A stretch of DNA of 9,601 bases, taken from the NCBI RefSeq assembly GCF_946482535.1, contig NZ_CAMLRU010000104.1, positions 1 through 9,601 of the forward strand. The letters run 5' to 3'. Positions 628-9,601 of this stretch are shown here, one piece after another. The stretch is from an uncultured Flavobacterium sp. GTDB lineage: Bacteria > Bacteroidota > Bacteroidia > Flavobacteriales > Flavobacteriaceae. The notes beneath the pieces are model-generated. The model searched no databases. It saw only the letters and a list, made by a program, of their open reading frames with translations, and was not told the origin of the DNA. Both the position numbers and the translations under genes were made by a program. Numbering within the stretch: position 1 is the first letter of the stretch; each line of letters begins with the position of its first letter.

Positions 628-2163
628 TTATAAGATGTCATCGGTTTTATTATAATAATAAAATGCCAGCTTATAATTTAATTCTGTTGGAATGAATGGT
701 TTAGTTACGTAGCTGTTGGCACCAACTTGGAGTGCTTTATCAAGATTTAAGTAAGAGGTAGAGGCTGTTAAAGCGATAATTGGAATTTTAGCATCTATTA
801 ATCGCAACTTTGCAATTGCTTCATAGCCGTCCATAATAGGCATAGATAAATCCATCAAAATGGCATCATAATTACTTCTGTTGAATTTTTCTAGAGCAAT
901 TAGTCCATTCTGCGCAATATCAACTTTTACTTTCCATTGTTGCAAAATTCGTTCTGCTACCTTAATGTTTATAAGGTTGTCTTCAACAAGAAGAACCCTC
1001 ATGTCCTCGAGCATTTGAATCTCTCTGTCATGAAAATGACTATTTACAGTTTGATTGTCACTGTTTGGAATTGGCATGTTTAGAACAAAATTGAAATTAG
1101 CACCTTTACCTAATTCACTTGAAATTTCAATTTTTGATTGAAAAAGTTGCAATAAATTTTTAATAATTACCAAGCCTAAACCGCTCCCGCCATACTCTCG
1201 AGAAATAGAAGAATCGTATTGAGAGAATTTTTGAAATATTGAAGAAAATTTAATTAAATCAATACCAATTCCATTGTCGATTACTTCAGATTTAAAAATA
1301 ATATTTTCTTCATTTTTTTCAAGTGTTGTAATTTTAAATTCAATTTTTCCGTTTTTGGTGAACTTTATTGCATTGGAAAGTAGATTAGTGATGATTTGAC
1401 TAATTCTCAGTGGATCTCCAATTACATTAGGCGTAAATTTTGTATCAACTGTAAGTGTAATAGTGTTGTTGTTTTGCTTTGCATTAGCCTCTAAAGATTT
1501 AATGATGTCATTGACTAATTCCAAATAATCAAATGAAATATGGTCTAGTATAATTTTTCCATTTTCAATTTTATTATAGTCAAGGATATTATTTATAAGA
1601 TGCAAAAGATTTTGAGATGATTTTTTTAAAAGCTCTAAATTATTCTGGATACTTGATAAATCATTTTGATTTTCCATTATATAGGAGAGTCCGATAATTG
1701 CATTCAGTGGAGTTCTGATTTCATGACTCATCACAGATAAAAAATCAGACTTCGCTTCGTTTGCTTTTTCTGCGGCTAACTTCGCTTCGAATAACTCTTT
1801 TTCATGTTTTTTCTTAAACTCAATTTCATCTTTTAAAATTTTGAATAAATCGTCGGAATTACTTTCTGTATCTAAAGACAAAGAATTAATATCATCCAAT
1901 TGTTTGATGGCCTCAAATAATTTTGTTACGATTCCTGTATTCTTATTTAATTCTTCCTTTAGCTTGTTGTTTATCTTGTTGTATTCAATATCATTTAATC
2001 GAATAGATTTTTCAACCAATTCGGCATCTTTTTCATAACTTAAATAACTTTGGTTGATGATATCGATAAACTTGTAAAGAGATGGTCTTTGTTCTAAAAT
2101 TTCATCATCAATATATTTCTTTACTTGTCTGCCAAAATAGCTATGTAGTTTTTCGATTAACAT
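628..2163 (-). CDS. Soluble hybrid histidine kinase with C-terminal receiver (NahK/VpsS-like partner of a FIST sensor)
   Basis: This 511-residue protein has no signal peptide or membrane segment, so it is probably cytosolic. Residues 1-75 are charged and helical, and 105-140 look like a coiled coil leading into HisKA. The H box SHEIRTP contains the predicted phospho-acceptor His147. The HATPase domain follows, with N box (Asn264), G1 DNGIGI (296-301) and G2 GGSGLG (325-330). A receiver domain occupies about 388-505, with acidic pocket Glu394/Asp395, phospho-acceptor Asp438, Thr466 and Lys488. All key residues are present. There is no PAS, GAF or periplasmic sensor domain and no output domain. 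The start lies 6 bp after the FIST gene's stop, so the two are surely co-transcribed and perhaps translationally coupled. I infer that the FIST protein supplies the signal and that phosphate leaves through an HPt protein or response regulator encoded elsewhere. No clear terminator follows. Confidence 0.93.
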   Translation of the reverse strand: MLIEKLHSYFGRQVKKYIDDEILEQRPSLYKFIDIINQSYLSYEKDAELVEKSIRLNDIEYNKINNKLKEELNKNTGIVTKLFEAIKQLDDINSLSLDTESNSDDLFKILKDEIEFKKKHEKELFEAKLAAEKANEAKSDFLSVMSHEIRTPLNAIIGLSYIMENQNDLSSIQNNLELLKKSSQNLLHLINNILDYNKIENGKIILDHISFDYLELVNDIIKSLEANAKQNNNTITLTVDTKFTPNVIGDPLRISQIITNLLSNAIKFTKNGKIEFKITTLEKNEENIIFKSEVIDNGIGIDLIKFSSIFQKFSQYDSSISREYGGSGLGLVIIKNLLQLFQSKIEISSELGKGANFNFVLNMPIPNSDNQTVNSHFHDREIQMLEDMRVLLVEDNLINIKVAERILQQWKVKVDIAQNGLIALEKFNRSNYDAILMDLSMPIMDGYEAIAKLRLIDAKIPIIALTASTSYLNLDKALQVGANSYVTKPFIPTELNYKLAFYYYNKTDDIL

Positions 2164-2169
2164 ATAAGA

Positions 2170-3312
2170 TTACAATTCATGGATACTGGTAATTGAAATA
2201 GTTTGATTGTGTAATTCACATGGCTTATGTCTTACTACCGGGGAAATTTCGCCATACGAATAAAACCCAAAAAGAAAAGTATTGTTTCCAAAGACTTCTT
2301 TAACAATTTCTATTTCCTCCTCAATTCTGTTCTCCAATACAACTTTTCTACCAACGCAACTAACAATCATTACTAATTCAGGGTTACTATATCCGTTTGC
2401 AATTGAGGCATTAGACGCATTATATGAAGCATCTATAAGTTTATCAAAATTACCCTTCATTAGTTTAACAGTAGCTCCCTGAGGAATGTTGCCCGCAAAA
2501 GTCATTGATTTTTCTTGCTCATCGATTGATAAAATAGTTCTGACAACCGGAGAAGCATACTCATTTTCTCTCATTGATAAAGGAAAATATAATGCAGAAC
2601 CGGGTAAATCATCCGCATATTTTCCGAGATATTCTTTGTATAAATCTAATGCATAATCGTCTCCAATTTTATAAAGTACGTTTTTATCTGATAGCGTCAC
2701 CTCTCTTTCAGGGCCAAAATCAGTCCATCCACCCTCACAACCAAAACCAAATTTTATGTTATTTCCATAGAAAGCGATCAAAGCTATTTCACCCTCTTTT
2801 GGATTTTCATTAACGCCCACTATTGTTTTTCTGAAATTTAAAGCATCACCGGCCATACCACCAAAAATCGGAATCTTAGACTCTGTAGCTTTGGTAAGTT
2901 CTGTAATTAGTTCTGTTCCGTTTCCATAGGTGCCTTCTGATAAGACCATCAATGAATTCAAATCATCACTTACAATTTCACGAATTATTTGAGGGCTAAG
3001 TTGATCTAAATTTTGTTTTTCCAACAAATTATAGTTTAATATTCTGAATTCTGTTTTTTCAAACTCGATTGCTGTAGCCACAAGATTTATTTCACCACCA
3101 ATATCATTACTAACTTGACCAGCAGAAGAACAAATCACAATGTCTGCATTAGAATATTGTTGTTTAAGAATTTTATAAAAATCTAATGATTCCAGCATTT
3201 CTCTTTCTCCAAAGGCAATTACTAATTGAGCTGAATCAGCATTAAATGATGTGGAAGTTTTAGCTATATGAATTCTGGATGATTCATTAATTAAGACCTG
3301 TTGAATTTTCAT
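2170..3312 (-). CDS. FIST-domain sensor protein (FIST_N + FIST_C), NosP-like
   Basis: This 380-residue soluble protein, without signal peptide, shows FIST_N at about 25-200 and FIST_C at about 215-365. Recognisable family motifs are CSSAGQV (61-67), FGGMAGD (150-156), FYSYGEISP (350-358) and ELHNQT (366-371). Length and domain order match full-length bacterial FIST proteins. In Pseudomonas, Vibrio and Legionella, FIST proteins named NosP bind heme, sense nitric oxide and control a hybrid kinase encoded beside them; that is family knowledge, not visible here. The adjacent kinase without a sensor domain supports the same role. Candidate heme-ligating histidines are His15, His362, His368 and His378; I cannot say which, and heme binding is unproven. 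The alternative is a sensor of small ligands such as amino acids, the original proposal for FIST. The ATG at 3312 is chosen because it gives a typical N-terminus. No TAnnTTTG box was found upstream. Confidence 0.9.
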   Translation of the reverse strand: MKIQQVLINESSRIHIAKTSTSFNADSAQLVIAFGEREMLESLDFYKILKQQYSNADIVICSSAGQVSNDIGGEINLVATAIEFEKTEFRILNYNLLEKQNLDQLSPQIIREIVSDDLNSLMVLSEGTYGNGTELITELTKATESKIPIFGGMAGDALNFRKTIVGVNENPKEGEIALIAFYGNNIKFGFGCEGGWTDFGPEREVTLSDKNVLYKIGDDYALDLYKEYLGKYADDLPGSALYFPLSMRENEYASPVVRTILSIDEQEKSMTFAGNIPQGATVKLMKGNFDKLIDASYNASNASIANGYSNPELVMIVSCVGRKVVLENRIEEEIEIVKEVFGNNTFLFGFYSYGEISPVVRHKPCELHNQTISITSIHEL

Positions 3313-3586
3313 AATAGACTTAATTTATTAGTAATAAATATCTGGTTTGTCTAGTCTAATCTATTATAAATTGTTAATTTAAATATAATTTATTAAGGTC
3401 TTATTAGATGGAAGGTAGGAATGTTTTAGATAAACGGTTTTTTTATGTAGGATATTACATTTTTTTTTAAATTATTCAACTCGTTTTTTCAAATAAATGG
3501 AATAATTATTTCTTACGAAATTTTTTAAAAGATGAATTGGTTGATTTGAAATGAAGTTACCGAGTTGGAATCCTATTGAGGGAATA
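3313..3586. other. Intergenic region upstream of the FIST operon
   Basis: This 274-bp AT-rich stretch lies between two - strand genes. It should hold the 3' end of the DUF3810 transcript and the promoter of the FIST/kinase operon. I see no consensus Bacteroidota promoter on the - strand and no strong terminator; ATTTC-GTAA-GAAAT near 3510 is only a short weak stem. The one tidy structure is a perfect inverted repeat TTATTA-G-TAATAA at 3325-3337, 12 bp before the FIST start codon, which could be an operator or chance in AT-rich DNA. No open frame of note crosses the region. Confidence 0.6.
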
Positions 3587-6789: not shown

Positions 6790-7821
6790 ATGAAAAAAGT
6801 ACTTCTTATACTTTTAATTTTCGGTTTGTTTCTTTCTTGTAAAAAGGAAAATAAAATAGCCAATGTGGAACGTGCTTTTTATTATTGGAAAAGTGACAAT
6901 TGGAATATATCTCAAAAAGAAGACTCAGTTGCTAATAAACTGGGTGTAAAGAAACTGTATGTAAAGTTTTTCGAAGTTGATTACAGCGACGCGATGGGCA
7001 ATTTTCCTATTTCTAAAACACAACTTTATTTATACAACTTGGATAGCATAGCTATTGTTCCTACAGTGTATATAAAAAATACAGTTTTCCTAAAATCCAA
7101 TTTGACGAGTTTAGATACTTTGGCGGATAATGTTAATTTTTTAATTACTAAATTTTATAAGGAAAAATTAAGAAAAGCCAAACCGCCGGTTGAGTTTCAA
7201 ATGGATTGTGATTGGACGTTGAAATCTAAAGACAACTATTTTTATTTTTTGAAGAAACTCAAAGAGATTTCCCAAAAAGAAATTAGCTGCACACTGCGGT
7301 TATATCCTTATAAATATCCAGATAAAATGGGTGTTCCGCCCGTTGATAAAGCCACTTTAATGTGTTACAATTTATTGAATCCATTGCAAAATCACACCAA
7401 AAATTCCATATTAGATATTGATGAATTGGAAAGTTATTTGGATACTGATAAAATCTATCCGAAGCATTTAGACATAGCCTTGCCTATTTATTCCTGGATG
7501 CAAGTATATAAAAACGAGCAGTTTTCCAATGTAATCTATACCGATAATAAAGTAATTAAAAAGTTACTAAAGGAGATAAAACCCTTTTGGTATTCGGTTA
7601 CCAAAGATACTGTTATTAACGAGACATACTTGCGAATAGGAGATAAGGTAAAGTTTGAAGAAATTGACGCCCTTAAAGTCAATGAAGCCATTCATTTATT
7701 AAAAAAATACATCAAGTTCGATAAGCAAACTACCGTTTCCCTTTTTCACTTAGACGAGCAACAATTAAGCAATTATACTAATGAGGAACTTTCTGGTTTT
7801 TACAGCACTTTTAGTAAGTAG
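6790..7821 (+). CDS. Lipoprotein of unknown function, possible TIM-barrel-like fold
   Basis: This 343-residue protein has a lipoprotein signal: MKK, a hydrophobic run (4-16) and Cys17 in LFLSC. The Lys-Lys-Glu just after the Cys only loosely resembles the surface-export signal described in some Flavobacteriaceae, so the side of the membrane is open. The mature part alternates beta-like strands and helices: KLYVKFFEVDY (55-65), SIAIVPTVYI (86-95), EFQMDCDWT (135-143), a helix to about 160, CTLRLYPYKY (167-176), ATLMCYN (188-194), LDIALPIYSW (227-236) and FWYSV (266-270). This rhythm and the D139-x-D141 motif recall glycoside-hydrolase-like barrels, in particular DUF3142 proteins. That is my reading of the pattern, not a recognised match. 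The last 41 nt overlap the next gene in another frame, so the two are almost certainly co-expressed. A possible role is binding or cleaving an envelope polymer; function is unknown. Confidence 0.85.
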   Translation: MKKVLLILLIFGLFLSCKKENKIANVERAFYYWKSDNWNISQKEDSVANKLGVKKLYVKFFEVDYSDAMGNFPISKTQLYLYNLDSIAIVPTVYIKNTVFLKSNLTSLDTLADNVNFLITKFYKEKLRKAKPPVEFQMDCDWTLKSKDNYFYFLKKLKEISQKEISCTLRLYPYKYPDKMGVPPVDKATLMCYNLLNPLQNHTKNSILDIDELESYLDTDKIYPKHLDIALPIYSWMQVYKNEQFSNVIYTDNKVIKKLLKEIKPFWYSVTKDTVINETYLRIGDKVKFEEIDALKVNEAIHLLKKYIKFDKQTTVSLFHLDEQQLSNYTNEELSGFYSTFSK

Positions 7822-9601
7822 CAATTTTTTTGCGTGTGGATTTTATCCTTACGGAGAAGAACTTCGGTTCTCATTTTTCAATCCCGATTTGATGGGTTAC
7901 CATTCTTATTCGGAGTTTTATTATTCGGCCAATACCTTTGGACCTCGCGAAGTATATAGAGATTTTGATCAAACACCTAATGAATTGTTATGGGTCAGAT
8001 ATTGTAAAAACAAGGTTTCCTACCAAGCGGTTCAAGAGGTAATGAAAGGCATGTCTTTAGGCGATATTCACTCGAAATCAAATAATGAAATGCTGGTTTA
8101 TTTGTATCGGAATAAAGATTTTGAGGCGATTAATTATTTGAAGTTTGCCAAGAACTGTGAATTTTTCAATTCTTGGATGGAAGATCCATGGGAAAGAAAT
8201 GAAGTGCAATCCTCTCCGGTGCGAAAAAAATTATTGAACAAAGCGATTTTACTTTCCAGCCAAACTAAAAATGAAGCTCTGAAATTTCGCTATACTTTTT
8301 TGGCTATTCGAATGGCATTTTACAGTCAGGATGTAGTGAAAATAAGAGCTCTTTTTGATACAGTTTTTAAAGCAAAACCTACCAAAGATATATTGTTTTA
8401 TTGGAGTTTGTACTTTAGAACATTGGCTGAGGAAGACAAGGCTTTGGCTAATTTTTATGCCGCTCAGGTTTTTGTCAATGCACCAGAAAAACGTTTTGCC
8501 ATTTCGCAATATTACAATAGTGATATTCCCATCGAACAAGTCTTGGCTTATGCCAAGACCAATGATGAAAAAGCCAATGTCTATCTTTTTGCTGGGATTT
8601 TAAAACACGATAAATCATTAGATTATTTCAAAAAAGTATATGAATACCGTCCGAAATTTGATGGATTAAGTTTTATGCTGTTGAGAGAAATGAATAAAAT
8701 TGAAGATTGGGTTTTTACACCTTACTATTCTCTTTTTGAACCTTCAATAGAAACCAATAGTTATTGGGAAGCGGAAGTGTCAGTCTTTGAAGCAGTTCAG
8801 AAAAGGGTAGAAGCAGACAGAAACTACGCCTCAGAATTATTGCTATTTATTAATAGCATAGATTTGAATTCAGTTGAAAATCCGATGCTCTGGAAAACTT
8901 GCAAAGCTTATTTATTATTTATAGCGAAAGATTATAATAGTAGTATAACTCTATTGAAAGAGTTGAAAAAAAGTAAATCTTCCGGTTTGATTACCAATCA
9001 ACTAGAAATTATTGAGGCCTTAGCCTTAACGGCCAATCAGCCATTTGGTAATGCCATATTGCTTAACGAGGTAAAACCCGTGATTTTGAGAACTAAAAAT
9101 TATCAAAAGTTCTTGTTTGCTTTAGGTAGAGAATTAGAATATAAAGGCAATAGTACTGACGCTGCACTATTGTATTCTACTTTAGGTAAAGGCTATGAGA
9201 ATTACTATGAAAATCACGATTATTACAATAGTGTCTATTGGAAATCCCAAACCAATTCACCCGATAATTATTCGGATTTTTACACTAACTATTTTGATTA
9301 TATCAATGTTATGTATACGCCGGAACAAGTAAAGACTTTAATAAACAACATCTACAAAAATAGGGATAAGGAAGATGAGTTTTCGATTTTTAAATACAGT
9401 GTGTTAAAGACAGAATTGCCTCTTTTGTATGATTTGTTGGGAACCAAATACATTAGACAAAACAAACTGACTAAAGCCATGCAAAGTTTTAAGAAAGTAG
9501 ATGTCAAACTTTGGAATGAAAAGTATACTAACTGGGAGCGCGACAACAGAGGTTGGTCTTATGGAGGTGCTATTTTTGACCAAAATCCATTTTTTGTTGT
9601 C
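7781..9601 (+). CDS. Large exported helical-repeat (TPR-like) protein of unknown function, 3' end outside window
   Basis: Reading from ATG 7781 gives 607 codons with no stop up to the window edge, so the gene is partial at its 3' end. The N-terminus MRNFLVFTALLVSSNFFACG is a signal peptide; Cys19 could be lipidated (FFAC) or simply follow an SPI site. The mature start GFYPYGEELRFSFFNP is followed by a Tyr/Phe-rich segment. From about residue 95 on, the sequence is mostly amphipathic helices. TPR-like helix pairs can be seen near 443-470 (LGRELEYKGN, then DAALLYSTLG) and most clearly at 548-574 (KYIRQNKLTKAMQSFKKV). I recognise no catalytic motif. The start sits inside the end of the lipoprotein gene, and since the signal peptide lies in the overlap this start is well supported. 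It may be a scaffold working with the lipoprotein in the envelope. Similar long proteins with an ACGxYPYGE-type start occur, as I recall, in other Bacteroidota without a known role. Confidence 0.85.
   Translation, partial: MRNFLVFTALLVSSNFFACGFYPYGEELRFSFFNPDLMGYHSYSEFYYSANTFGPREVYRDFDQTPNELLWVRYCKNKVSYQAVQEVMKGMSLGDIHSKSNNEMLVYLYRNKDFEAINYLKFAKNCEFFNSWMEDPWERNEVQSSPVRKKLLNKAILLSSQTKNEALKFRYTFLAIRMAFYSQDVVKIRALFDTVFKAKPTKDILFYWSLYFRTLAEEDKALANFYAAQVFVNAPEKRFAISQYYNSDIPIEQVLAYAKTNDEKANVYLFAGILKHDKSLDYFKKVYEYRPKFDGLSFMLLREMNKIEDWVFTPYYSLFEPSIETNSYWEAEVSVFEAVQKRVEADRNYASELLLFINSIDLNSVENPMLWKTCKAYLLFIAKDYNSSITLLKELKKSKSSGLITNQLEIIEALALTANQPFGNAILLNEVKPVILRTKNYQKFLFALGRELEYKGNSTDAALLYSTLGKGYENYYENHDYYNSVYWKSQTNSPDNYSDFYTNYFDYINVMYTPEQVKTLINNIYKNRDKEDEFSIFKYSVLKTELPLLYDLLGTKYIRQNKLTKAMQSFKKVDVKLWNEKYTNWERDNRGWSYGGAIFDQNPFFVV

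Follow-up and report, generated by a model that had tools for sequence, protein, structure and literature searches.

What signal would a FIST protein encoded immediately ahead of a hybrid histidine kinase perceive in a flavobacterium, and how would it hand that signal on? The question is raised by a gene pair in the stretch of 9,601 nucleotides analysed here over its full length (hereafter, the window), which comes from contig NZ_CAMLRU010000104.1 of an uncultured Flavobacterium sp. A first, sequence-only reading had proposed that the pair is a nitric oxide (NO) sensing system of the NosP/NahK type. According to our data, it represents a FIST/kinase pairing conserved in Bacteroidota, whose kinase carries an N-terminal module of its own; with moderate confidence, we regard it as an auxiliary-sensor two-component system, in which the FIST protein would sense a small reactive signal, likely related to NO, and control the kinase through that module, followed by a phosphorelay to an HPt protein or a regulator.

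The two genes are co-directional on the reverse strand, with the FIST gene first. The latter (2170..3312) starts with ATG and codes for 380 residues that include both FIST domains at full length: FIST_N (PF08495; residues 29-217, positions 2662..3228) scores 117.6 bits against a cut-off of 23.2 (E 8e-34) and FIST_C (PF10442; residues 221-358, positions 2239..2652) 121.3 against 28.5 (E 4e-35). The AlphaFold2 model of the protein has a predicted local distance difference test (pLDDT) score of 91.4. A spacer of 6 bp (2164..2169) separates its stop codon from the start of the kinase gene (628..2163), which also begins with ATG, is complete and codes for 511 residues. HisKA (PF00512; residues 137-202, positions 1558..1755, phospho-acceptor His146), HATPase_c (PF02518; residues 249-363, positions 1075..1419) and the receiver domain (Response_reg, PF00072; residues 390-496, positions 676..996, phospho-acceptor Asp438) all exceed the Pfam cut-offs, and beyond these three the Pfam search at E 0.001 gave no family for the kinase. 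The catalytic motifs are intact (SHEIRTPLN at 146, NLLSNAIKFT at 260, DNGIGI at 296, GGSGLGL at 325, VEDN, MDLSMP with Asp438, and TKPF). The arrangement described in the sequence-only reading, that is, a FIST gene 6 bp upstream of a complete hybrid kinase, is thus borne out exactly.

A flavobacterial host is supported as well, since the best full-length named match of the window FIST among those listed belongs to a Flavobacterium metagenome-assembled genome (MAG; 67%) and a partial match from Flavobacteriaceae reaches 77% over 248 residues. The 11 named relatives listed comprise nine Flavobacteriaceae, one Lacihabitans (44%) and one Omnitrophota MAG (28%). FIST is a very common family, since 7995 of the 8000 candidates scored in the protein search, those with most words in common with the query, pass E 0.001. 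In public records, two FIST proteins of this family (P0051 and P0095) bear the name "histidine kinase", which probably reflects an annotation error passed on from the adjacent gene.

Residues 1-78 of the kinase (1930..2163) correspond to no annotated domain; we refer to them as the nt module, which is tied to FIST in profile searches and is predicted to be helical, although with low confidence, because the model of the kinase has a mean pLDDT of 67. The profile (A2) was built from an alignment of 12 kinase N-termini, all of them FIST-paired and the window's own among them. Among 249 Flavobacteriaceae genomes it retrieved the module at 67 places in 61 genomes, 66 of which lie directly 3' of a FIST gene, and among 228 Bacteroidota genomes at 30 places in 29 genomes, 28 of them directly 3' of FIST; the two samples overlap, as G001, G010, G117 and G196 give nt matches in both. 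The window shows the same arrangement, its kinase having helped to build the profile. Moreover, two FIST-paired kinases of Azospirillum match, at E about 1e-10, a profile from which Azospirillum sequences were left out. In the fetched loci, the gap between the FIST gene and the nt-kinase ranges from -55 to +10 bp in 87 out of 88 pairs (190 bp in the remaining one), a count in which two loci were fetched twice and gene starts come from a simple open reading frame (ORF) caller. Since nearly all pairs are similarly close, the 6-bp adjacency in the window is not due to chance, and the survey of Bacteroidota that the sequence-only reading had called for finds the adjacency conserved. Very probably, the window FIST regulates the co-encoded kinase. 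Furthermore, because 66 of the 67 nt places in Flavobacteriaceae directly follow a FIST gene, the nt module (about 75 residues) is probably the part of the kinase on which FIST docks.

The pairing is also found outside Bacteroidota: plasmids of Azospirillum oryzae and A. lipoferum (L061 and L062) harbor a FIST gene, whose product is 32% identical to that of the window, followed after 4 bp by an nt-kinase. Unlike that of the window, these kinases are 1305-1314 residues long with PAS domains, and the next gene encodes a response regulator with an HD-GYP motif, as read by eye, a type of output with no counterpart seen in the window. Two Bacteroidota nt-kinases (L184 and L185) are orphans, with no adjoining FIST gene, although in one of the two genomes a FIST/nt-kinase pair lies at a distance of 27 kb. 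In Flavobacteriaceae, the sole nt-kinase that does not follow FIST is that of L165, where an H-NOX operon includes it and has no FIST gene; FIST is present elsewhere in that genome. In four further Flavobacteriaceae loci (L086, L087, L090 and L093), from genomes without an H-NOX match, four tandem FIST genes precede one kinase lacking the nt module.

Indirect, though independent, support for a link to NO comes from the relatives of the pair. Among the 249 Flavobacteriaceae genomes, 79 harbor FIST and 95 H-NOX; both are present in 61, only FIST in 18, only H-NOX in 34 and neither in 136 (odds ratio 13.6, Fisher p 8e-18, uncorrected for kinship). In 53 of the 79 FIST-bearing genomes a FIST gene lies at most 6 kb from an H-NOX gene. 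Out of 108 FIST genes, 53 are on the same strand within 12 kb of H-NOX (real gaps 0.5-5.4 kb), 52 of these downstream of it, and an nt-kinase follows 48 of the 53. The fetched loci holding both genes are 44; the order receiver/H-NOX/histidine kinase/FIST/nt-kinase/HPt/LytTR is found in 34 of them, six more keep the H-NOX/kinase/FIST/nt-kinase core (40 altogether) and four deviate. The H-NOX loci lacking FIST read receiver/H-NOX/kinase/HPt/LytTR in seven cases out of seven fetched; thus, FIST and the nt-kinase look like a cassette inserted between the H-NOX kinase and HPt. In the H-NOX/FIST operons, two sensors would apparently feed one phosphorelay. In one of them (L006), Pfam confirms H-NOX, both kinases, LytTR and the receiver, while HPt, with 21.1, stays under its cut-off of 24.6. 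The H-NOX proteins keep the conserved histidine (104 in L006) in 44 out of 44 and the YxSxR motif in 42.

Both states coexist in one genome, G001, where an H-NOX operon (L097) lacks the cassette and is followed further downstream by a distant type-E FIST gene, and the ortholog of the window's FIST lies elsewhere (L001). In two rearranged loci the order is FIST/H-NOX/hybrid kinase (L099) and FIST/nt-kinase of 1539 residues/H-NOX (L132). A further locus (L166, G053:C9), with an H-NOX match interrupted by an in-frame TAG and a FIST fragment of 140 residues, appears to be a decayed H-NOX/FIST cluster. At the genus level, 43 of the 149 genomes surveyed have FIST and 26 an H-NOX match, 25 above the cut-off. 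The association itself is not new, since FIST was already reported among the neighbours of H-NOX "group 1", with no taxa specified (PMC8738867).

As for the position of the window's own pair, a quick tree of 135 FIST rows, with SH-aLRT support only and several long branches, places it in a 10-row clade (support 100) of free-standing FIST/nt-kinase pairs whose kinase ends in a receiver. This clade is nested in a 25-row one (95) that includes the H-NOX-linked L005, L099 and L132, and which is sister to a 47-row clade (100) containing most H-NOX operons, the joint node of 72 rows having a support of 97. H-NOX-linked members thus bracket the window's clade, which either lost the H-NOX link or never had it. 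In comparison with the H-NOX operons, it stands free, its kinase has a receiver of its own, and no HPt, LytTR or H-NOX gene was recognised alongside.

On these grounds we favour the following scheme. The cytoplasmic FIST protein would sense a small reactive signal and, docked on the helical nt module at the N-terminus of the hybrid kinase, control the latter; phosphate would pass within the kinase from His146 to Asp438 and then on to an HPt protein or a response regulator encoded elsewhere. As the signal, NO or a chemistry related to it seems to us the likeliest, since close relatives of the pair sit in H-NOX operons, spliced between the H-NOX kinase and the HPt and LytTR genes that the two sensors would share. 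The NosP-type histidines would have no part in reading it; as a candidate reactive centre we favour a near-invariant cysteine, Cys319, unless heme is bound in some other way.

Several data weigh against this scheme. The nt profile was made from FIST-paired kinases; the predicted structure of the kinase is poor; and out of the 108 FIST genes in Flavobacteriaceae, 42 are not accompanied by an nt-kinase, most of these belonging to tandem FIST arrays and divergent groups. With regard to NO, the Fisher p-values overstate independence, the genomes being related, and H-NOX is absent from the neighbouring genes shown for all ten members of the window's clade. No HNOB domain (PF07700) was found in the six window ORFs scanned, that at 7781-9601 not being among them, and thus the window does not qualify as an H-NOX/FIST operon. 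Eight surveyed genomes belong to this clade, and only three of them have an H-NOX match, one broken or weak. Over the phylum, H-NOX is near only 5 of the 30 nt-kinases and 19 of the 29 nt genomes lack it, the other 10 comparing with 16 out of 228 Bacteroidota genomes overall. Finally, nirK is associated in Flavobacteriaceae with neither gene: of the 47 genomes that carry it, 15 have FIST (odds ratio 1.01) and 14 have H-NOX (odds ratio 0.63). No link to denitrification through nirK was thus found.

An alternative to the favoured explanation, which we consider unlikely, is that an electrophile (an aldehyde, an S-nitrosating agent or an oxidant) modifies Cys319 and controls the kinase without any heme. 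In the nt-type and nearest groups, all 91 FISTs keep the residue (codon 2356..2358, in SCVGRK), and so do all 34 in group F, all 7 in group E and all six NosP and NosP-like proteins compared. The predicted fold of the window FIST is that of the FIST domain of human FBXO22 (8s7d and 8ua3), a strong fold match at 14-15% identity; Cys319 aligns with FBXO22 Cys326, which is reported to react with aldehydes (PMC11208438 and PMC13316043). Moreover, NosP or NosP-like genes on proteobacterial plasmids (L177, L178, L179, L181, L182 and L183) stand beside aldehyde or alcohol genes in six annotated loci out of six, namely aldehyde dehydrogenase/DUF779, pyrroloquinoline quinone (PQQ) alcohol dehydrogenase, and pqq or formaldehyde genes; the unannotated record of Variovorax L180, in which profiles detect a FIST gene and part of a kinase, was left out of this count. 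The gene neighbourhoods raise the question of whether NosP might also answer to aldehydes.

However, the sequence alignment with FBXO22 is weak (E 0.013-0.014 with profile A3 of 49 FISTs, an unrelated protein scoring 0.014), and searching the PDB sequences with the window FIST and with profile A1 gave nothing meaningful. FBXO22 itself is a eukaryotic E3-ligase substrate receptor rather than the partner of a kinase. The conservation of Cys319 may be structural, and the FIST of L010 has serine in its place. Aldehyde genes were found at none of the five other plasmid FIST loci, and none was recognised beside the window pair or those of its clade. An Fe(II)-CO maximum at 416 nm is not what thiolate-bound heme looks like. 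This is the value given for P. aeruginosa NosP, with Soret maxima at 420 (Fe2+), 396 (Fe2+-NO) and 416 nm (Fe2+-CO) in PMC12889525, and NosPs are reported to act via heme, that of Burkholderia being described as a heme-bearing inhibitor of its kinase (PMC12570481). In our judgement, sensing through a cysteine is a serious alternative to sensing through heme.

The canonical NosP/NahK mechanism, in which FIST binds heme and NO on the heme iron switches the kinase, as in P. aeruginosa, L. pneumophila and Burkholderia, is in our judgement unlikely for the window. There are resemblances: in both cases a full FIST_N/FIST_C protein, the presumed regulator, is encoded directly ahead of a soluble hybrid kinase with a receiver, the FIST_C cysteine is common to both, and the H-NOX context of the relatives suits a sensor of NO. 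FIST proteins may bind NO and/or heme, the binding mechanism being little known, according to PMC8846402. Nevertheless, the window FIST scores only 53.3 bits on the NosP model (NF041558), whose equivalog cut-off is 450, and the kinase 114.5 on the NahK model (NF041831, cut-off 1500) and 151.5 on "near_NosP_CTERM" (NF041832, cut-off 400). As positive controls, two Azospirillum NosPs named as such by PGAP reached 487.7 and 500.0 bits on the NosP model, with four NosP-like proteins at 349-389; eight of nine other FISTs, three H-NOX-linked ones among them, scored 46-75 and the Omnitrophota FIST 126.

The N-terminus of the kinase differs too, since the nt profile matched none of six NosP- or NosP-like-paired kinases at E 0.01 (best 0.013; L179 absent even at E 100; the start of the L177 kinase was assigned by our ORF calling, so that its sequence may be truncated). 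On the basis of these six, we rejected the idea that the nt module belongs to NahK-type kinases. In addition, unlike NosP/NahK, the window pair has no recognised cyclic di-GMP gene beside it.

The histidines point the same way. In an alignment with the two NosPs and the four NosP-like proteins, two of the histidine columns typical of these (each 5/6) correspond to V167 and G195 in the window FIST, and the third (6/6) to a gap that, by eye, is one residue ahead of H368, the C-terminal alignment being uncertain by one residue. The window protein has a sole well-conserved histidine, His368 (codon 2209..2211, in LHNQT), present in 85 out of 91 FISTs when the nt-type and nearest groups are taken together, which might be taken in favour of heme; however, two of the ten members of the window's clade have glutamine instead, and all 34 FISTs of group F, which is more distant and mostly tandem, share the histidine, as would be expected of a residue common to FIST proteins at large. 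We therefore judged His368 a weak candidate for a dedicated heme ligand. Histidines 15, 362 and 378 are not conserved. The alignment check for a heme ligand suggested in the sequence-only reading therefore leans against NosP without being decisive: no text found in the literature names the heme-ligating residue of NosP, so the histidine comparison makes heme less probable and no more. The proposal of a NosP/NahK-type NO-sensing system is supported in part: as regards NO, indirectly and through the H-NOX operons of the relatives, and not as regards membership in NosP/NahK, on model scores, kinase N-terminus and histidines. The H-NOX operons and the near-invariant cysteine lay beyond what a reading without database searches could reveal.

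Very improbable, lastly, is a FIST without a small-molecule ligand that would report the occupancy or abundance of a protein to the kinase, as a scaffold comparable to the FBXO22 FIST binding BACH1, given that heme-mediated NO binding has been reported for NosP-type FISTs and that the next fold matches of the window FIST, chorismatase and cyanuric acid hydrolase, bind small ligands.

A broader and decidedly speculative scenario, which we think improbable in its entirety, would join these threads. FIST domains, from bacteria to human FBXO22, might all be one sensor of ancient origin that is centred on a cysteine and responds to small reactive molecules such as NO, aldehydes and other electrophiles. 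The FIST/nt-kinase of Bacteroidota might then be a plug-in, heme-independent input to the H-NOX phosphorelay, so that two NO-related sensors would converge on one HPt and LytTR, with the window pair as a free-standing descendant bearing its own receiver.

FIST-kinase neighbourhoods have reportedly long been known, from the work of Borziak and Zhulin in 2007. The pairs as such are not new, and that of the window is distinguished by its nt module, by the H-NOX/FIST cassette and by the link to a cysteine. No study of a Bacteroidota FIST-kinase pair was found in the openly licensed PMC literature, and one may exist in print. If the favoured scheme holds, there would be a Bacteroidota-wide FIST-kinase family with a definable docking module and, unexpectedly, a phosphorelay with H-NOX and FIST as its two sensors; Cys319 would be a single residue by which heme and cysteine sensing in FIST could be told apart, and it would also correspond to the ligandable site of human FBXO22.

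As for the rest of the window, the intergenic stretch upstream of the FIST gene (3313..3586) is the expected promoter region; promoter and terminator scans gave results no better than shuffles, with no promoter match there. The other neighbours comprise DUF3810, a beta-Ala-His dipeptidase, DUF983 and ORFs of no assigned family, and they point to no function for the pair. Beyond the 3' end of the kinase gene, three tRNA genes for Ser(gct), Pro(tgg) and Arg(tct) form a cluster on the forward strand (2-275), and the Rfam scan of the window retrieved these three and nothing else. Among plasmids, the closest relative found of the window FIST (36.8%) is a kinase-less FIST gene of Legionella plasmids (L060, 4476-5642). 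At the other end of the window, an ORF of 607 residues (7781-9601), open at the window end, begins within the 3' end of the ORF at 6790-7821.

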